Shown: positions 3,063-22,590 of the stretch, piece after piece
Layout of the letters: every line of letters starts with the position of its first letter
Numbering within the stretch: position 1 is the stretch's first letter
From: a virus
DNA length: 22,590 bases
IMG/VR virus record: IMGVR_UViG_3300028610_000693
Coordinates: 1 to 22,590 of that record
Strand: one strand, 5' to 3'
Position numbers and translations under genes: made by a program
The notes under the pieces: generated by a model
What the model was told of the DNA's origin: nothing
The model's input: the letters and a program-made list of their open reading frames with translations, nothing else
Databases searched by the model: none

Positions 3063-3955
3063 GGCACGAACGACGGCCTGTTCTGACTCACCGAAGCATC
3101 GCCCACGCCTTCACCGCCTGACGGCCACGGCCTGTATTCCATAGCCCCGAAGGCTGGACCGTTGAGGAGCGACACGCCCCCGAAGCACTTGGTCATCAGC
3201 ACGAGCGCATCGCCACCAGGACCGCCCTTGCCCTGGAGCAGATTGGTGCCTGACGCATCCTTGAGTTGCTGCCCCAAGACCGACTGGGTACTGCGCGGTG
3301 CGCTGCTCACGGGCAGGCTGGCAACGTGGCCCACCTGCGGGGCCGTGTTGAAGGCCGCGACGAGCGCGGCATCCGTGTTGGTCGTCCCCGCGATGAAGTC
3401 TCCACCGACCGCCTGGACGGTCAGGATCGCCAGCCGCCCATCGGTGTTGCCCGTATCGCGTAGCTTCGGGCAATTCGCCAACGCGATCTCCTCCGTCGCG
3501 AAGGCCATGATCGGAGCCTGGGCGTACACATCCTTGTCGGATGACGCATTGGTCTGAAGCAGCCAGACGCCCCAGAAGCCATCCAGGACCGTAGCCACTC
3601 CAGGGCCAGAAGTGAAAGCCTGCGCTGCTGTAGGCGCGACGTTGATGAAGCTCTCCCCGTCAGGCGCGAGCCTCCAGAACTCGTCAATCAGAAACGTCGC
3701 TGCTGCCGTCCCTGGCAGAAGGCGAGGGCTCCCGAGAGCCGCCCCGACAGGACACGCTTGGGCCGTGATGGTCAGGACCGCATCGGAGAGATCCTGACGC
3801 CAACAGGCTAGATCACTCAGCCGCCAGTTGTAGCGGGGAGTGATGTGAAAGATCGGCTCGTCCTGATTGACGCCGAACTCGGGGACACTGAGGGCCACCG
3901 TGATGGTCTTCCGTAGAGCCTGTGCGTCCCTATGGATATTGCGATCTTGAATCAT
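3059..3955 (-). CDS. Second tandem paralogue behind the capsid gene (298 aa)
   Basis: This is the middle copy of the triplicated family. It starts MIQDRNIHRDAQALRKTITV and carries YNWRLSDLACW, a central VLDGFWGVWLL, AVGGDFIAGTTNTDAALVAA, LGQQLKDASGTN, and the shared C-terminus EYRPWPSGGEGVGDASVSQ ending PSFVP. The start is set by an AGGAG Shine-Dalgarno 8 bases before the ATG, which overlaps the TAG of the first copy. The gap to the first copy is 11 bases, and the overlap with the third is ATGA. The role is unknown, and virion decoration or surface function is inferred from position and copy number. Confidence 0.8.
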   Translation of the reverse strand: MIQDRNIHRDAQALRKTITVALSVPEFGVNQDEPIFHITPRYNWRLSDLACWRQDLSDAVLTITAQACPVGAALGSPRLLPGTAAATFLIDEFWRLAPDGESFINVAPTAAQAFTSGPGVATVLDGFWGVWLLQTNASSDKDVYAQAPIMAFATEEIALANCPKLRDTGNTDGRLAILTVQAVGGDFIAGTTNTDAALVAAFNTAPQVGHVASLPVSSAPRSTQSVLGQQLKDASGTNLLQGKGGPGGDALVLMTKCFGGVSLLNGPAFGAMEYRPWPSGGEGVGDASVSQNRPSFVP

Positions 3956-3966
3956 GGGTCAGTCTC

Positions 3967-4875
3967 CTATGGGACGAAGGATGGCCTGTTCTGGCTCACG
4001 GATGCGTCACCGACGCCCTCGCCGCCTGCGGGCCAGGGCCGGTACTCCACAACGGCAATCCCGCCCACGAGAACTGGAGCGCCCGCCGTTCGCACACTCA
4101 AGACCAGCGAAGTTCCAGCCCCGCCTGGACCGGGATTGTCGAAGCCGCCAATGCCCTGTAGGATGTCGGTCTCCGAAGCGTCCCTGAGTTGCTGGCCGAG
4201 CACGGACTGGAACGACCGGGGGCTGTTGTTGGGAATGATCGTCGCGACGTGTCCGTCCTGCGGAGCCGTGTTGAACGCGGCCACGAGCGCAGCGTCCGTG
4301 TTCGTGGTGCCCGCGATGAAGTCACCGCCCACCGCATTGATCGTGAGGATGGCAACCCGCCCCACGTCACCATCGGAGCCTGGGAAGGGCCTCGGCTTGG
4401 GGCAATTCGCCAGCGCATCCGCCTCGGTCGCGAACCCCTGGATCGCGCCGTTCACGATCACGCCCACAGCGTCGGAAGTATCTATGAGCACGAGGGCCAC
4501 ACCCCAGAAGCCATCCAGGACCGTGAATAGTTCTGTGAACGCCTGGGCGGCGATGGGACCGATGTTCCTGATCTGGTTCCTGTCATCTCGCTTCTTCCAG
4601 AACTCTTCGATCCCGAAGGTCACCGCTGCAGCCGGAGAAAGCTGTGGGCTCCCAACCGCAGCAGCAAAGGGCACCGCTTGGGCCTTCACGATTAGGTCGG
4701 CGGTCGCAAGGGATAAGACCTGGACCTCCAGATCACTCAGCCGCCAGTTGTACCTCGGCTGGATGAGGAACTGGGGCTCGTCCTGGTCGGTGCCGAAGGC
4801 CGGTACGATGAACGGGATGGTGAGAGACTTGCGAAGAGCCCTGGCGTCCCGATGGATGTTGCGGTCCTGAAGCAT
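3967..4875 (-). CDS. First tandem paralogue behind the capsid gene (302 aa)
   Basis: This is the first-transcribed copy of the triplicated family. I place the start at the ATG encoding MLQDRNIHRDARALRK because a GGAGG Shine-Dalgarno lies 6 bases upstream and the next copies start at the equivalent residue; an upstream in-frame start would add nine residues. Shared blocks are YNWRLSDL, VLDGFWGVALV, AVGGDFIAGTTNTDAALVAA, LGQQLRDASE and a C-terminus ending PSFVP. It is the longest copy because of a Gly/Pro-rich insertion (GGFDNPGPGGAG) before the last block. It follows the capsid gene after a strong hairpin, which may set its expression relative to capsid. Confidence 0.82.
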   Translation of the reverse strand: MLQDRNIHRDARALRKSLTIPFIVPAFGTDQDEPQFLIQPRYNWRLSDLEVQVLSLATADLIVKAQAVPFAAAVGSPQLSPAAAVTFGIEEFWKKRDDRNQIRNIGPIAAQAFTELFTVLDGFWGVALVLIDTSDAVGVIVNGAIQGFATEADALANCPKPRPFPGSDGDVGRVAILTINAVGGDFIAGTTNTDAALVAAFNTAPQDGHVATIIPNNSPRSFQSVLGQQLRDASETDILQGIGGFDNPGPGGAGTSLVLSVRTAGAPVLVGGIAVVEYRPWPAGGEGVGDASVSQNRPSFVP

Positions 4876-7583: not shown

Positions 7584-9968
7584 CTATTGGCCCGCTGCTG
7601 TTGGTGCTCCTAATTCGCCCGGTGGAGTGCCCCCGGTTCCCTGCGCTGGCTGGGACGCGGGTGCGCCTTCCGGAGATCCCGCCGCTCCCGAGCCATCCGG
7701 GTTGCTGGCGTCCGTAAACTGGTTGTCTCCGGCCTCTCCCTCGATGTTTCCATCGGGGTTGGCCTCTGCAGACTGTTGGGTCTTCACGAAGATGTTGATG
7801 ATGTGCATCTGCCGGTGCATCTGGAAATTTTGCTGGATAACCGGGTCGATGTTCAGGAACTCCGGAGACGACATAAACTCTTCGTGCGACAGGAGATGCA
7901 CGAGATCGTTGTACCACTCGAAGACCGGGATCTCCGTCGCAGGAACCCCCTGCAAGAGCTTCCCGTTCTCCTGGTCCGCCGTGATCCGGTGGACGCCACC
8001 GAACTTGCCAGCGCGACCCAAGTGGGGGAACTGGCTCAACTCGAAGAACGTCGCCACAGATTCCGGAGCGCCTGGAGGACCGAAGAGGCCGTTGGCGTAC
8101 AGCGCCGTGATGTTCTTCTGGCGCTCCCCGCGCCCCTCCGGGAGCATGGACTCCACATCCGCCAGCGCGTTCACTGAGCCTTCCTCGAACATCTCAGGCT
8201 GCACCATGATCGTCCGCGCCACGTTGTCCGTGCCAGCGTAGGAAAGGATCTGCTCCTCATCGTAGATGACTGGGAGGATCACCTTCCAGTCTTCGGCCAT
8301 GCGGGCGAACTCCTCTGCAGCCCGCCGCATCGTAGGCCCAAGGAACCGATCGCTGTTGAAGCGGAGTTCCTTCACGAGTTCGCCCGAAGCGTCCTCTGTG
8401 GGGGCGTCACCTTCGGTGCCTGCGAGGTTCCCGATATCGTCAATCTCCTGACGCATGAACTCGAGGGTCCGGTAAGCATCCTGCGAGAGCGGGGGCGGGG
8501 CGACCCACTCGAAGGGTGGAATCCGGTCGCGCCTCGAGACCTTCAGGTTCAGGCCGGGGCGGTTCGTAATCATCGACTCCTCAATGCCGCTGTTCGTGTC
8601 GATGACCTTGATCGGGTTGGCTGAGAGATTCGTGTGCTCGATGATGAGGGCAGCGACCTTGTTGAAGACCCTCTGGGGCTGATTCATGGCCTCTTGGGGC
8701 GTCGTACCCGCTGCAGGCCGTCCAGGGAGCCGAACGAAGTCAAACTTCCGTATAGGGCTCGCGCTCTGATACCTCACCGGCCTCGTGCTGTCGTGGAGAA
8801 CCTCTTTCCGGGTCAGGATGAGCAGCCTGCCACCGGGCTCCTCCGGGTTCTCGTCCATCCGAGCATACGGGGCGGGCCTGTGCCAGAGCGTGAAGACCTC
8901 CACCGTAGACTCCGGGATGCTCACGTCCGCCGAGAAGTCGGCACCGAACACCGCTGGATCTGCAGCCCCGAAGTACCCGTCACCGTAGGTGAGGCGCTCT
9001 GCGACCCCAGTGTCCCCTCCCCGGCTGCTGCCACCCTTCGGCGCCTGCTGTCCCTCGATCTTCACTTGGTAGGTCTCGAAGATTTCCGCTTGGGTTAGGA
9101 AGCTCCGGACCATGTGCCATCTCTTGTCCTGCCATGCGGCTGGACCCCACTCACCACGAACCTGCACAGGGTTCAGGACTTCGACCGCCAGGTCGCCCTT
9201 TCGCTCTGCAAATCCAGACTCAGGACCCATGGGTTGGCCGGTCTCTTGATCGAACTGGGGAAGACCCTCTTCGGTGAAGCCGATATTGCCCGCACCCTCT
9301 CCCTGGAACCCACGCAGAATCTCCTGCTGCTCAGGGTTGAGATCCTGCATATCCTCTTCGCCTGGCTGTCCCTCGAAGCGAATGAAGTCGCCTTTGCTCA
9401 GGTCGATCGTACTCTGCAGGTAGACCATGCCAGCGGGGATCAGCCACGCACTCGCACGGTCCCAGACCTCGGGCATCTTCACTTCCCGCCACTTCGTCTT
9501 GAAGATCACGTCCATGGTCTCCGCGAGCAGCGCGTCGATCCGGTCGGGTCCAGGCGTGAACGTGATGATGGGAGGGTTCTCAGTCATGCGAGCGTGCGTG
9601 AGGATGAACCACGTCAGCAGCCGGTTGAAGACCGGCCTCTGGCGCCACTTCTTTTCCTCGGCGGTCATCCACTGGGTCACGTCGATGAAGCGGCCCATAC
9701 GGGGGTTGAAGACCGACCATTGCTGCCCCGCCAGCATCCGGATGTTCTCCTCTACCTGGCGTATCCAACGCCGAAGAACGTCGTCCTGAGAGTCGTAGAG
9801 GAACGTGGCCCAGGCGATCCGATCGTCATCCCGCTCGTCCGCTGTCCCGTGACCGTTCTCGCTGTCCGCACGGATATCCGGGATCTGGTCGAACTCGAAC
9901 CGCTTGCCCAGGGCGAGCGTCCTGGCGCCTTCCGTGCCGCCTCCAAACCGAGATGATGCGAGTGCCAT
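7584..9968 (-). CDS. Portal protein (794 aa)
   Basis: This is the dodecameric head vertex through which DNA enters and leaves, and it is the docking point for terminase. Residues about 60-150 contain the typical portal front end: a coiled segment (DDVLRRWIRQVEENIRMLAG), then RPVFNRLLTWFILTHARMTE and ENPPIITFTPG. A later segment (QRVFNKVAALIIEHTNLSAN) and a helical stem region with LEFMRQEIDDIGNLAG follow. The last 60 or so residues are Gly, Pro, Ala and Gln rich and probably disordered. The length is at the upper end for portals. A GGGA-type ribosome site precedes the ATG. It is followed after 20 bases by the scaffold gene, the classic portal-scaffold-capsid order. Confidence 0.82.
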   Translation of the reverse strand: MALASSRFGGGTEGARTLALGKRFEFDQIPDIRADSENGHGTADERDDDRIAWATFLYDSQDDVLRRWIRQVEENIRMLAGQQWSVFNPRMGRFIDVTQWMTAEEKKWRQRPVFNRLLTWFILTHARMTENPPIITFTPGPDRIDALLAETMDVIFKTKWREVKMPEVWDRASAWLIPAGMVYLQSTIDLSKGDFIRFEGQPGEEDMQDLNPEQQEILRGFQGEGAGNIGFTEEGLPQFDQETGQPMGPESGFAERKGDLAVEVLNPVQVRGEWGPAAWQDKRWHMVRSFLTQAEIFETYQVKIEGQQAPKGGSSRGGDTGVAERLTYGDGYFGAADPAVFGADFSADVSIPESTVEVFTLWHRPAPYARMDENPEEPGGRLLILTRKEVLHDSTRPVRYQSASPIRKFDFVRLPGRPAAGTTPQEAMNQPQRVFNKVAALIIEHTNLSANPIKVIDTNSGIEESMITNRPGLNLKVSRRDRIPPFEWVAPPPLSQDAYRTLEFMRQEIDDIGNLAGTEGDAPTEDASGELVKELRFNSDRFLGPTMRRAAEEFARMAEDWKVILPVIYDEEQILSYAGTDNVARTIMVQPEMFEEGSVNALADVESMLPEGRGERQKNITALYANGLFGPPGAPESVATFFELSQFPHLGRAGKFGGVHRITADQENGKLLQGVPATEIPVFEWYNDLVHLLSHEEFMSSPEFLNIDPVIQQNFQMHRQMHIINIFVKTQQSAEANPDGNIEGEAGDNQFTDASNPDGSGAAGSPEGAPASQPAQGTGGTPPGELGAPTAAGQ

Positions 9969-19170: not shown

Positions 19171-19452
19171 CAGGGAAAAATTCTGAGGAGATACGGGATT
19201 GCTTCGAGGAGAGCGAGCGCCCTGAGAGCCTGGAAAAGTATTTGGCTCAAACCGTGTGAGAAGGGTGGAATCATTGGAGTCCCGAGCCTCGCGAAAGGCC
19301 ACTCCGTGCAGAGGTCCCCCCGCACCTTGCCGACACCCCCACCCAGCCTCACGCCGTCACCATAGCTAAGTGCCTACGTACCAACACGTTAGCTAGTGCT
19401 CGCATGTGCTAGGTTAACATAATGTATCTTATACGAAGGGGACATCGTAAAT
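19171..19452. other. Intergenic region without a convincing gene
   Basis: About 280 bases lie between the terminator and the 3' end of the leftward gene at 19453. There is a stem-loop at 19276-19305 (outer arms GGAGT and ACTCC, inner GCCT and AGGC). An inverted repeat AGCTAA and TTAGCT lies near 19363-19393. An AT-rich patch is at 19411-19434, including a GTTAAC palindrome. A leftward promoter candidate overlaps the right end. No gene with a good start is visible on either strand. Confidence 0.5.
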
Positions 19453-19872: not shown

Positions 19873-19967
19873 CCCGATATCATGGCCAACTGGCTGCAAT
19901 TCCGCAATACCCCGAAACGCTATCCCCTTGTGAAATAACAACTTACGGCCTACCCTGAAATAAACTC

Positions 19968-19996
19968 TTGACAGGACGAAACAGCCTGTGTAACTT
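19968..19996 (+). promoter_or_regulatory. Early-type promoter P1 of the rightward operon
   Basis: A perfect -35 TTGACA (19968-19973) is followed by a 17-base spacer and TAACTT (19991-19996). The spacer contains ACAG and CTGT around one base. The distance to the ATG at 20039 is about 42 bases, with an AGGAGA ribosome site between them. A promoter sharing TTGACAGGACG stands at the right end of the window, so these are repeats of one promoter type. Confidence 0.65.
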
Positions 19997-20038
19997 GGAA
20001 TCAGCAGCACAACGCAAACTCGACAGGAGAACCGCAAA

Positions 20039-20434
20039 ATGAAAACCTCCCCACGCACGCTCGATCTAAGCTGGGAACTCATCGGATTTGACGAGATCCC
20101 AGACGCGGACTACTCGCACACCCTCGCGGTATTAACCCCCGTGCCCGAGGCCGAATGCTGGGAACGCACGATTCTCGGATTCGATGAAATTCCGCCCCAT
20201 GGCTACACGCCCCTCGCGTCTTCTCGCACACACTCAGATGCGGACGCGGCTTTTGACGCGCTCGAGGAAGCCTACGAGAACGGCGTCGAATCGCAGCAGG
20301 TTTTTCTGGCTCGCTTGCTCGCGATAAATATCCCCGAGTGCGAGGGGCTTCGCTTCGTCACCGAGTGGCGCCAAGATCACGCGGACCCGTGGATTAGGGC
20401 GCACGATGAGAGAGCCGAGATGTTCTGCAAATAG
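20039..20434 (+). CDS. First early gene, with internal GFDEIP duplication (131 aa)
   Basis: The start is set by AGGAGA eight bases before the ATG. The protein is acidic and soluble. Residues 12-25 (WELIGFDEIPDADY) and 41-56 (WERTILGFDEIPPHGY) are an internal repeat. The rest is helical, with AFDALEEAYENGVESQQVFL. I do not recognise a family. Early phage genes of this size and acidity are often host-takeover or anti-defence proteins, but no evidence here shows it. It is followed by the first composite boundary element. Confidence 0.68.
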   Translation: MKTSPRTLDLSWELIGFDEIPDADYSHTLAVLTPVPEAECWERTILGFDEIPPHGYTPLASSRTHSDADAAFDALEEAYENGVESQQVFLARLLAINIPECEGLRFVTEWRQDHADPWIRAHDERAEMFCK

Positions 20435-20450
20435 GGTCGCGACATAGTGG

Positions 20451-20520
20451 CGCGGGAGGTCGAACTCTCGCGTTGCTTTGCCCCGTAGGGGCAGTACGAC
20501 GCAGTTACACGCAAACGCAG
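20451..20520 (+). repeat. Boundary element 1: T-arm-like hairpin, 3-nt-loop hairpin, ACGCA leader
   Basis: CGCGGGAG and CTCTCGCG (one G-T pair) form a hairpin with loop GTCGAA at 20451-20472. TGCCCC and GGGGCA form a hairpin with loop GTA at 20479-20493. ACGCA copies follow at 10-base and then 6-base spacing (GACGCAGTTACACGC, then AAACGCAGG), next to the ribosome site. The order of the two hairpins is reversed compared with the other elements. Confidence 0.6.
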
Positions 20521-20530
20521 GAGCAGGATC

Positions 20531-20626
20531 ATGGGTAACGCAGCACGCAGGCAGGAGGTCTTTCTCGCGAGCCTGGCGGTCACGTTTGGGCCGTTCTTGA
20601 TCGCTTTCCTCGCGACGATGCCGTAG
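20531..20626 (+). CDS. Micro membrane peptide (31 aa)
   Basis: An AGGAG site seven bases before the ATG and a full boundary leader precede this short gene. It begins MGNAARRQEVFLASLAVTFG and ends PFLIAFLATMP, with a single membrane segment covering residues 11-30 after a short basic N-terminus. The stop TAG is inside the next hairpin. Being flanked by boundary elements on both sides supports it as a separate translated unit. The function is unknown. Confidence 0.6.
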   Translation: MGNAARRQEVFLASLAVTFGPFLIAFLATMP

Positions 20627-20685
20627 GCATCCGGGGCGCGGGGGTTCGACTCCCTCGCGCTCCAATTCACACGCAGTAATCACGC
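20617..20685 (+). repeat. Boundary element 2, with canonical T-arm-like hairpin
   Basis: GATGCC and GGCATC around loop GTA form a hairpin at 20617-20631 that contains the stop codon of the 31-aa gene. GCGCGGGGG and CCCTCGCGC around loop TTCGACT form the second at 20636-20660, the closest match to a real tRNA T-arm. It is followed by TCCA. The leader ACGCAGTAATCACGCAC lies before the GGAGG ribosome site, with an 11-base repeat period. Confidence 0.65.
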
Positions 20686-20702
20686 ACGATTGGAGGCCGA
20701 GA

Positions 20703-21029
20703 ATGAGCAGCATGTACGAGCAAACGGTGGCCAGACACACCTGGACGCCCACGATGGATGCCGCGCAGCTATGCGGGGACTGCCCCGAGTGCATGACGCG
20801 GGGAGTTCACACTCACACCGAGTTCTCCGGAGGAGATGGGGAACGTGGCTTCGTAGAATACGAATGCCCAGCCTGTGATTGCCATTGGACCGATAGCTAC
20901 AACCTCGTGACGCGCACGGTTTACCCTGCGGACGAGGTTGATTTGCAGCACCAGATCGACGCCCTGAAAGGGCGGCTCGCAGAGCTTTGCTCTGACCTTG
21001 GGGATCTTGAAGCCCCGCACACGCAGTAA
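20703..21029 (+). CDS. Zinc-ribbon protein with C-terminal coiled coil (108 aa)
   Basis: Cysteines form two CxxC pairs, CGDCPEC (Cys24, Cys27, Cys30) and CPACDC (Cys55, Cys58, Cys60), a typical zinc ribbon. Residues 78-102 (EVDLQHQIDALKGRLAELCS) look like a coiled coil. A GGAGG site six bases before ATG sets the start. It is probably nucleic-acid or protein binding; the partner is unknown. The last 50 coding bases double as boundary element 3, so the C-terminal residues may be shaped by RNA structure. Confidence 0.7.
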   Translation: MSSMYEQTVARHTWTPTMDAAQLCGDCPECMTRGVHTHTEFSGGDGERGFVEYECPACDCHWTDSYNLVTRTVYPADEVDLQHQIDALKGRLAELCSDLGDLEAPHTQ

Positions 21030-21046
21030 ATACGCACTCACACGAG
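20980..21046 (+). repeat. Boundary element 3, partly inside the coding region
   Basis: CAGAGC and GCTCTG around loop TTT form a perfect hairpin (20980-20994). GGGG and CCCC around ATCTTGAAG form the second (21000-21016). Both lie within the last codons of the zinc-ribbon gene. The leader ACGCAGTAAATACGCAC follows, crossing the stop codon, again with an 11-base period, ahead of the GAGGAG site of the next gene. Confidence 0.55.
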
Positions 21047-21056
21047 GAGCAGCAGA

Positions 21057-21308
21057 ATGAGACTCAACGGACACGTTTACAACGGGCTCGCGACGGTGGA
21101 CGACCCCGATGCCGAGATTCGCGGGATCATGGGCGATCACGCTACGTACACCTGGATTTACAAAGTGGCGCACGAGGCCATGCAGCACGATCCGGTCGAT
21201 GCCATGGCGAGCCTAGAGGCTCTGGCCGATGCTTTCAAACGCCGGAACTCGTGCATACATGAGGCGGCTGTGCGGCTTCAACAGCCGATCGAGTTGGACC
21301 TGGGCTAA
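21057..21308 (+). CDS. Small acidic helical protein (83 aa)
   Basis: The GAGGAG site nine bases before the ATG sets the start. It begins MRLNGHVYNGLATVDDPDAE and has helical segments (WIYKVAHEAMQHDPVDAM, SLEALADAFKRRNSC). No known motif is present. It lies between boundary elements 3 and 4, so it forms a cassette of its own. The function is unknown. Confidence 0.65.
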   Translation: MRLNGHVYNGLATVDDPDAEIRGIMGDHATYTWIYKVAHEAMQHDPVDAMASLEALADAFKRRNSCIHEAAVRLQQPIELDLG

Positions 21309-21386
21309 CCGCCCTACGGGGTGCGGGGTGTCGAAAGCCCCGCGCTCCCATGCAGTACCGCAGGAAAACGCAACGCAGTACCACGC
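21309..21386 (+). repeat. Boundary element 4
   Basis: A short stem around TAC (CCC and GGG, 21312-21320) is followed by the T-arm-like hairpin GCGGGGT and GCCCCGC around GTCGAAA (21323-21343, with a terminal T-G pair). Then come a CTCCCATGCAGT stretch and the leader ACGCAGTACCACGCAA with a 10-base period, directly before the AGGAG site. The first hairpin is the weakest of the set. Confidence 0.55.
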
Positions 21387-21397
21387 AAGGAGTTCGG

Positions 21398-21850
21398 ATG
21401 GAAAACATGGAAATTTGGACCTGCAGATTGGTCCGAGAAACGAGCCAAGTCCCCATGCCCAAGGGCGGGCCGAAAGTCCAGGGGCCTGCAGACGTGGCGC
21501 GGATCATGGAGGCGCTGCATGGGGCTTCGCCGGTCGAACACTTCGTCGCTTTTGTGCTCAATTCAAGGCATGAAATCACGGGGATTGTGCCGATCAGCAC
21601 GGGCATACTGGACGCCTCGATCGTACACCCTCGCGAGGTCTTCAGGGCGGCGATTTTGGGCAACGCAGCAGCCATCGTAATCGCACACAATCACCCTTCG
21701 GGTGACGTGACGCCGAGTTCGGAAGATCGGCAGGTCACGCGCCTGTTGAAAGACGCGGGAGCCATCATCGGAATCCCCTGCCTCGACCACGTAGTGGTTG
21801 GGCGGGACGCGAAGTTTTTCGCCTTCAGCAGCGAGGAGAATCATGTCTGA
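21398..21850 (+). CDS. Stand-alone RadC-type JAB/MPN domain protein (150 aa)
   Basis: The start at MENMEIWTCRLVRE is set by AGGAG five bases upstream. Residues 47-130 carry the RadC-type JAB fold: VEHFVAFVLN with the upstream Glu, then the metal motif HNHPSGD (His97, His99, Ser101) and Asp110 in PSSED. GIPCLDHVVVG follows near residues 125-135. The N-terminal helix-hairpin-helix of full-length RadC is missing, so only the JAB domain remains. Such phage and plasmid proteins are proposed to act in DNA repair or against host defence; the substrate is unknown. It overlaps the next gene by 8 bases. Confidence 0.78.
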   Translation: MENMEIWTCRLVRETSQVPMPKGGPKVQGPADVARIMEALHGASPVEHFVAFVLNSRHEITGIVPISTGILDASIVHPREVFRAAILGNAAAIVIAHNHPSGDVTPSSEDRQVTRLLKDAGAIIGIPCLDHVVVGRDAKFFAFSSEENHV

Positions 21851-22148
21851 GCAAGGCTACGTAGTAGCAGTCTACGAAATCGACAGGGCCTACGGTGGGC
21901 CGGAGGAAGGCGGGTGGTGGTACAACACGGGGGAGCTTGTGCGTGTCCTTCGCGCCTTCAAATCGAGCCAGGAGCAGCAGGCCATGGAGTTCTGCAGCAG
22001 AGTCAACCGCTCGCTGCACTTCAAGGCCGAGCACAACAACGTGCGGAGCACGGGAAGCGTAGCTTACTGCGGGGGACGGTACGCTGCAGAGATGCACGAT
22101 GGGACGGCGCCGGAATCGTACCCCGAGTGCCACCCTCACTACGAGTGA
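21843..22148 (+). CDS. Small protein of unknown function (101 aa)
   Basis: A GAGGAG site four bases before the ATG sets the start inside the end of the RadC-like gene. The protein begins MSEQGYVVAVYEIDRAYGGP and contains GGWWYNTGELVRVLRAF and a His-rich tail (ECHPHYE). Three Cys and several His residues could bind metal but form no clear motif. It is coupled to the JAB gene without a boundary element between them, so the two may work together. Confidence 0.65.
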   Translation: MSEQGYVVAVYEIDRAYGGPEEGGWWYNTGELVRVLRAFKSSQEQQAMEFCSRVNRSLHFKAEHNNVRSTGSVAYCGGRYAAEMHDGTAPESYPECHPHYE

Positions 22149-22232
22149 GCCGAAGGCTCAGAACGGCGTTCTAAGGGACGTGAGGCGTCGAACCCTCACA
22201 TCCCCATGCAGAGTAGCACGAGCAGTCACACG
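22146..22232 (+). repeat. Boundary element 5
   Basis: TGAGCC and GGCTCA around GAA form a hairpin at 22146-22160 whose first arm starts with the stop codon of the 101-aa gene. AGAAC and GTTCT around GGC form another (22160-22172). GTGAGG and CCTCAC around CGTCGAAC is the T-arm-like hairpin (22180-22199), followed by ATCCCCATGCAG. The leader has one clear ACGCAG copy and a degenerate one before it. Confidence 0.55.
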
Positions 22233-22248
22233 CAGCGCGGGAGGCAGC

Positions 22249-22317
22249 ATGAAAGAGCTTTTGATCCTCACCCTATGGGTGGTTTTTCTTCACTTCACAT
22301 ACCGGAGGGAAGCATGA
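22249..22317 (+). CDS. Micro membrane peptide (22 aa)
   Basis: This very short gene begins MKELLILTLWVVFLHFTYRR and ends EA. A hydrophobic core (residues 4-17) with a basic end suggests a small membrane peptide. A GGGAGG site lies five bases upstream, and its TGA overlaps the next ATG as ATGA, which supports translation. It could also act as a leader peptide that couples translation of the 73-aa gene. The function is unknown. Confidence 0.5.
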   Translation: MKELLILTLWVVFLHFTYRREA

Positions 22318-22535
22318 GCGACGAGGCGCTTTACGTCACGATTCTAGGCCCCGTGGACCTGAACGGGAACACGCGGCAGATGCACATCCGAGTCGATCCG
22401 ATCACCGCCGAGCTTTGCAAAGCAGAGCCGACGATCATGGTGACGGCGGAGGAGTTCCGGCGCCTCGCGTTGATGTGGGACTTCCCGCTCAACGATGACG
22501 ATCGCGAGACCGCCGAGAACGAGGCGCACGGGTAG
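22314..22535 (+). CDS. Small acidic protein of unknown function (73 aa)
   Basis: It starts at MSDEALYVTILGPVDLNGNT with a CGGAGG site upstream, overlapping the micro peptide as ATGA. The N-terminal half is beta-prone (NTRQMHIRVDPITAELCKAE) and the C-terminal half helical and acidic (TAEEFRRLALMWDFPLNDDD). No known motif is present. It is the last gene before the next promoter, so it closes the early operon in this window. Confidence 0.62.
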   Translation: MSDEALYVTILGPVDLNGNTRQMHIRVDPITAELCKAEPTIMVTAEEFRRLALMWDFPLNDDDRETAENEAHG

Positions 22536-22543
22536 CACGCAGG

Positions 22544-22558
22544 GCTCTTGGTAAGAGC
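22544..22558 (+). repeat. 3-nt-loop hairpin ending the last cassette
   Basis: GCTCTT and AAGAGC pair perfectly around GGT, the same form as the first hairpin of the other boundary elements. It follows the stop codon of the 73-aa gene after CACGCAGG and lies just before the next promoter. It may be the start of another composite element or an end-of-operon structure. Confidence 0.5.
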
Positions 22559-22562
22559 AGGG

Positions 22563-22590
22563 TTGACAGGACGGATCGACCGTTGTATCG
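22563..22590 (+). promoter_or_regulatory. Second copy of the early promoter type, cut by the window edge
   Basis: TTGACA (22563-22568) is followed by a 17-base spacer beginning GGACG, as in the promoter at 19968. Then TATCG is visible before the window ends, so the -10 lacks its last base. The spacer holds ACGG and CCGT around ATCGA. It probably drives the next early operon. Confidence 0.55.

Follow-up and report, generated by a model that had tools for sequence, protein, structure and literature searches.

Several described systems resemble the element reported here. In mitochondrial tRNA punctuation, RNase P and RNase Z cut a polycistronic transcript at tRNAs lying between genes. Minimal substrates of RNase P, such as AT1 (acceptor stem, T-stem and T-loop), and mascRNA, which is freed by RNase P, have a 12-bp helix with a T-loop. 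Bacterial RNase P cuts hairpins of this acceptor/T minihelix kind and is thought to measure 12 bp (PMC11143913). Repeated inverted-repeat elements between small non-structural genes are also found in cluster K mycobacteriophages, which carry start-associated sequences (SAS) and their extended form (ESAS), and Twister-P5 ribozymes (RF02684) are placed behind stop codons in some phage contigs. In this study, we analysed the IMG/VR virus record IMGVR_UViG_3300028610_000693, a stretch of 22,590 bases from an uncultured phage (the window, here always the whole stretch), and found in the spaces between its early-operon genes a hairpin, which we call element B, with a stem of 12 bp and a UCRA loop resembling a T-loop.

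Like the mitochondrial tRNAs, element B is a tRNA-like fold at the gene boundaries of a polycistronic transcript; however, it consists of the acceptor/T minihelix only, with no cloverleaf, it lies in phage mRNA, and its cutting is putative. Unlike AT1 and mascRNA, it lacks a 3′ RCCA, and most of its loops are 6 nt long (RTCRAA). It shares its place behind stop codons with Twister-P5 but has no twister core, and RF02684 had no match in the window. SAS and ESAS are conserved sequences (13 bp, 17-bp inverted repeats) at gene starts, whereas B lies behind stops with only its loop and length kept. The 13-bp GGGATAGGAGCCC, which in cluster K lies near start codons, had no match with up to two mismatches, and in place of sequence-conserved 17-bp inverted repeats we found 12-bp stems that differ at each site. 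These differences in sequence, stem length and position bear out the initial annotation, which had set the layout apart from that of cluster K.

The minus strand of the window carries portal, terminase and capsid genes, and the plus strand carries small early genes. Nineteen relatives were found via the window capsid protein and fetched whole or nearly whole. The early region is common to the window and only one of them, G002 (also L109; 49,797 bases with an end repeat of about 128 bases), which was also the sole match in scans with the early-gene proteins. No DNA-level similarity to the window was detected in phages and plasmids.

The junctions between early genes were defined by open reading frame (ORF) coordinates alone, and a UCRA loop was sought in them without requiring pairing. 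Exactly one such site with a 12-bp stem was present in all 11 early-operon junctions of at least 76 nt (four in the window and seven in G002), 6-28 nt past the stop codon and 39-70 nt ahead of the next start; overlapping junctions and two junctions shorter than 30 nt had none. The stems of these 11 loop-anchored elements comprise 104 Watson-Crick, 23 G·U, 3 A·C and 2 other cells, an asymmetry of G·U versus A·C with a binomial probability of about 4e-5. Because a G·U pair on the sense strand is an A·C pair on the opposite strand, the G·U excess points to the mRNA. B-like hairpins numbered 4 in window positions 20435-22560 against 0.10 in shuffles (0/300), and 7 in the early region of G002 against 0.13. 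In 13 of 14 elements pairing stops before position 13, showing that the helix is exactly 12 bp long, and TCRA is present in the loop of all 14.

In an alignment of 13 elements, 96.8% of the cells are paired, double-sided changes occur in all 12 pairs, and covariation is 0.876 versus 0.22 in shuffled and 0.12-0.26 in slid alignments; sliding the pairing partners by one lowers pairing to about half. As this alignment was picked by structure, the case rests on the loop-anchored junction counts and on orthologous junctions. At junction E-F (22175 in the window and 2432 in G002), pair 4 is A-U in one phage and G-C in the other, and pair 7 is U-A and C-G, respectively. At junction A-B the two stems are entirely different. 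Position, structure, exact length and selection in the sense-strand RNA are established for B, and its role as RNA punctuation of the early operon is firm. The initial annotation had proposed gene punctuation with selection on RNA structure for all hairpins of the region; for B this holds, given its presence in all long junctions, the G·U bias and the compensatory changes at the orthologous junction.

A search of relatives with a covariance model, which the initial annotation had suggested, set B clearly apart (15 matches scoring 30.7-46.6 bits, the next 20.5), with matches in G002 as well as in the window. Beyond these two phages, the only good matches were one copy each in G006, G007 and G008, whose loop is TTCGACT. 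No convincing B was found at 73 loci of RadC relatives, and a scan for the loop-plus-flank pattern gave, apart from G002, two chance matches. A B-like match in G022 proved to be an ordinary terminator. ARAGORN detected no tRNA cloverleaf with an anticodon arm in the window or at nine loci taken from G002 and G006-8.

Element B probably marks sites at which the long early mRNA is either cut or protected, given the self-cutting ribozymes at equivalent places in the next operon of G002. The best explanation, which we hold as a good possibility rather than a probability, is that B is a tRNA-mimic signal for cutting the early mRNA between genes. In this mechanism, B would copy the tRNA acceptor/T-arm minihelix (7+5 bp, U-turn loop [G/A/T]UCRA) within the early polycistronic mRNA, host tRNA maturation enzymes (RNase P on the 5′ side or RNase Z on the 3′ side) or an equivalent nuclease would recognise it, and cuts at B would yield single-gene messages as in mitochondria. 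B is indeed as long as the acceptor plus T helix. The canonical T-loop TTCGACT occurs at 20633 and in G006, G007 and G008, all of which fit the 7-nt consensus UUCRANY; the loop at 21318 has 7 nt starting with G, and the other nine elements carry UCRA in a 6-nt loop. The nearest Rfam model was mascRNA-menRNA, a weak match below threshold at 20633-20663; no Rfam family reached its gathering threshold for B or for the triloop hairpins (element A) treated below, and the latter do not fit SAS/ESAS either. Downstream of B come a repeated translation leader (GYACGACGCAGUUNACACGCAAAC-like), a Shine-Dalgarno sequence and an AUG. As this leader resembles the one that follows promoters, every gene would still carry a leader of its own after a cut near B.

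Each of the two early operons of G002 uses its own element, and in the second one Twister-P5 ribozymes, at 60.4, 52.7 and 46.5 bits (gathering threshold 37.6), would do the same job by self-cleavage. Arrays of 4-8 Twister-P5 copies are present in five more phage contigs, G019 (L188), G020, G022 (L190), G026 (L192) and G028 (L191), and many copies begin a few bases from the stop codons of small-gene arrays. This supports the notion that cutting between genes is a habit of such operons and lends indirect support to a putative processing role of B.

Several observations weigh against a tRNA mimic that is cut. The first T-loop position is G or A in 10 of 14 B loops, and among the 11 elements of the operons nine have a 6-nt loop. 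The 3′ RCCA is absent; the sequence there is mostly CATG (elsewhere CATT, ATTG, AATT or other), so that the RCCA contact of RNase P is missing. At −1, 13 of 14 elements carry A or C rather than U. No RNA ligase or RNA nuclease was found among ten scanned G002 proteins. The array is present in two phages only, with one copy in each of three other fetched relatives and none in the rest, and the twister argument is an analogy of position.

It is plausible, if on the doubtful side, that B is instead not cut at all and is recognised by an RNA-binding protein of the phage or the host, or serves as a plain 3′-end stabiliser against exonucleases, so that the early messages are regulated or protected as a set. 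A conserved loop on a stem of free sequence, one copy at each message 3′ end, the CATG flank conserved outside the stem and the use of a separate element in each G002 operon would all suit such a role. However, a stabiliser needs neither the exact 12-bp length nor the T-loop core, and the twister ribozymes that occupy the corresponding places act by cutting, not by binding.

It is very unlikely that early gene cassettes are exchanged by recombination at B, whether as an integron-like site or as a single-stranded DNA hairpin. Gene content between the elements differs between the window and G002, with which the cassette exchange proposed in the initial annotation is compatible, and G002 encodes the recombination proteins YqaJ and RecT. 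However, the stems differ site by site with no common core of the attC kind, only the sense strand tolerates G·U, and selection is seen at the RNA level. B elements can scarcely be intrinsic terminators or attenuators either, since these GC-rich hairpins directly past stop codons are followed by no T-run, none was picked by a terminator scan, and the genes carry on downstream with no evident promoter.

Two other ideas on B were discarded. A leaderless start at the AUG of the CATG behind B would share its frame with a downstream gene at three sites only (21350, 22206 and G002 2463), and a pseudoknot between loop GUCG and flank CGAC is not maintained at every site. The ATG of CATG gives in-frame extensions of the RadC ORF (21350-21850), of the gene G ORF (22206-22535) and, at G002 2463, of the gene at 2583.

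The perfect hairpins with 3-nt loops, which we call element A, are a different matter. The initial annotation had named five of them, with loops GTA, GTA, TTT, GAA and GGT, and had placed next to each of the first four a second hairpin with a TCGA or TTGA loop. All five were located (Table 1), and the second hairpins with TCGA loops are the B elements of junctions A-B, B-C and E-F. The TTGA case (21000-21016, plus strand) is a GGGG/CCCC stem with a 9-nt loop inside ORF 20703-21029, too weak to count as a B and not recovered by the covariance model, and a fourth TCGA-loop hairpin, that of junction D-RadC, had been overlooked. The GGT hairpin is a promoter-side palindrome of a different kind. 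Nor do the two hairpins form a fixed composite, as a triloop hairpin may stand before B, after B, on both sides of it or inside genes. Gene C has 40 residues fewer than its G002 counterpart and its end runs into the leader motif (21000-21029); a B element there may have been removed by a deletion in this gene.

Element A is enriched 6-7-fold in the early regions, including inside genes. Window positions 19961-22590 hold 15 triloop stems of at least 5 bp versus 2.4 expected (9 versus 0.6 for at least 6 bp), and the early 6 kb of G002 holds 48 versus 6.4; elsewhere in the two genomes the counts are close to those expected. Triloop stems with one G·U or one A·C show no excess in G002 (15 versus 12.9 and 16 versus 16.4); in the window, those with one G·U are mildly raised (11 versus 5.8) and those with one A·C are not (2 versus 6.2). 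A strict Watson-Crick rule is clear in G002 only. When synonymous codons were reshuffled with the protein kept, early genes had 31 hairpins versus 9.0 in G002 and 10 versus 2.5 in the window, and late genes 21 versus 18.6. A codon-phase bias of element A was mostly accounted for by codon composition.

GNA loops make up 23 of 48 (G002) and 9 of 15 (window) cases versus 8% and 5% in shuffles. The closing pair is C-G in 36 of 48 and 11 of 15, and G-C in 0 of 63 versus about 32%. There was no enrichment of RNA-type tetraloops (GNRA 1/19, UUCG 1/19). Very stable DNA minihairpins form when a GNA loop is combined with two or more G-C pairs (PMC4686876), and they prefer C-G closing (PMC5815330). Loop and closing pair are thus the same as in d(C-GNA-G) minihairpins, although these are known mainly as isolated or synthetic molecules, whereas element A occurs dozens of times in one early region. 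Given the GNA loops, the C-G closing and the lack of RNA tetraloop preference, element A looks like a DNA-level trait. Most likely, it is a separate layer of DNA-level origin, arising by fold-back or template-switch copying or acting as DNA minihairpins. It has no demonstrated part in punctuation: its Watson-Crick strictness in G002, its DNA-minihairpin loops and its presence inside genes as well as between them run counter to that part of the initial proposal.

A purely mutational origin of element A, in which fold-back or template-switch synthesis writes perfect short inverted repeats with no RNA selection needed, is a real possibility to which we would not quite commit. The perfect-stem excess in G002 and its loss with a single G·U or A·C, the minihairpin traits of loop and closing pair, and the small number of hairpins common to both phages are consistent with it, and stems of this type are reportedly both created and repaired by template switching (PMC8794818). 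However, synonymous codon choice builds the hairpins in early and not in late genes, and a general mutation process would need to be confined to the early region. For B such an origin is improbable because of its many G·U pairs, conserved loop and single copy per junction. Identity of element A with N4-type virion RNA polymerase promoter hairpins, which have 3-nt loops, is unsupported; both its stems and its loops are variable, and the promoters of these phages are of the TTGACA type.

Table 1. Features of the early region of the window, and ribozymes of G002 (coordinates of L109 where stated)
Feature	Coordinates	Strand	Remarks
Early operon promoter, TTGACA-17-TAACTT	19968..19996	+	read from sequence; unreported by strict consensus scan
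Early gene A	20039..20434	+	53% identity to G002 counterpart
Element B, junction A-B	20447..20476	+	12-bp stem (8 Watson-Crick + 4 G·U), hexaloop GTCGAA, 38.7 bits
Element A, TGCCCC-GTA-GGGGCA	20479..20493	+	between B and leader motif
Leader motif GTACGACGCAGTTACACGCAAAC	20494..20516	+	resembles leader after promoters
Early gene B	20531..20626	+	31-aa hydrophobic peptide, counterpart in G002
Element A, GATGCC-GTA-GGCATC	20617..20631	+	overlaps stop codon of gene B
Element B, junction B-C	20633..20663	+	12-bp stem, canonical 7-nt T-loop TTCGACT, 40.6 bits
Early gene C	20703..21029	+	61% identity to G002 counterpart, C-terminus shorter
Element A, CAGAGC-TTT-GCTCTG	20980..20994	+	within gene C
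Early gene D	21057..21308	+	
Element B, junction D-RadC	21318..21348	+	12-bp stem, loop GTCGAAA, 46.0 bits
RadC-like JAB protein	21398..21850	+	PF04002, 5.6e-37
Early gene E	21843..22148	+	
Element A, TGAGCC-GAA-GGCTCA	22146..22160	+	overlaps stop codon of gene E; conserved in G002
Element B, junction E-F	22175..22204	+	10/12 bp paired, loop GTCGAA, 41.2 bits; orthologous to G002 2432-2461
Early gene F	22249..22317	+	22-aa hydrophobic peptide, 76% to G002
Early gene G	22314..22535	+	43% to G002
Promoter-associated palindrome GCTCTT-GGT-AAGAGC = GCTCTTGGTAAGAGC	22544..22558	+	identical in G002, 4 nt upstream of TTGACA promoter
Promoter of next operon, first part (TTGACA, 17 nt, TATCG..), truncated at contig end	22563..22590	+	read from sequence, matches G002 promoter; unreported by strict scan
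Twister-P5 ribozymes, second early operon of G002 (L109)	3405-3458, 4222-4274, 4784-4835		at gene ends

Other features of the early regions were seen as well. A hairpin CACCC-TAT-GGGTG lies within gene F (22268-22282) and in L109 (2525-2539); the window copy, with TTTTTC after it, has the look of a terminator within a leader peptide. GGA-loop hairpins just ahead of start codons in L109 (1768-1782, 1926-1940, 2565-2579 and 2992-3004) are of a type that CsrA-type proteins bind. A conserved, partly palindromic stretch with TTAACATAAT lies between operons (window 19413-19445, L111 about 8475-8500); the window copy is, we presume, partly similar to loxP. A contig of a Gemmatimonadota metagenome-assembled genome (L194, JAOTVV010000018.1) carries a capsid gene 69% identical to that of the window, making Gemmatimonadota a possible host on this match, as a lead only. 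Neither B nor a twister was found in that genome, in which only part of the candidates were scored.

These results are compatible with a wider picture, speculative and rather doubtful as a whole, in which this phage lineage would: punctuate the early operons by means of RNA-cutting modules that are interchangeable (one operon using tRNA-mimic minihelices, the next twisters), so that polycistronic early messages become single-gene mRNAs; and fill the same region, through codon choice, with cGNAg minihairpins of the DNA type that act or arise at the DNA level. The minihairpins that codon choice builds in early genes form an anomaly of their own, which can be measured and can tell a mutational from a functional origin. 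In the twister arrays, small ribozymes would have an evident role in nature. Should B be a processing site, phages would have pared tRNA punctuation down to a minihelix of 30 nt, and the cutting of RNA between genes would be a modular, exchangeable part of phage operons.

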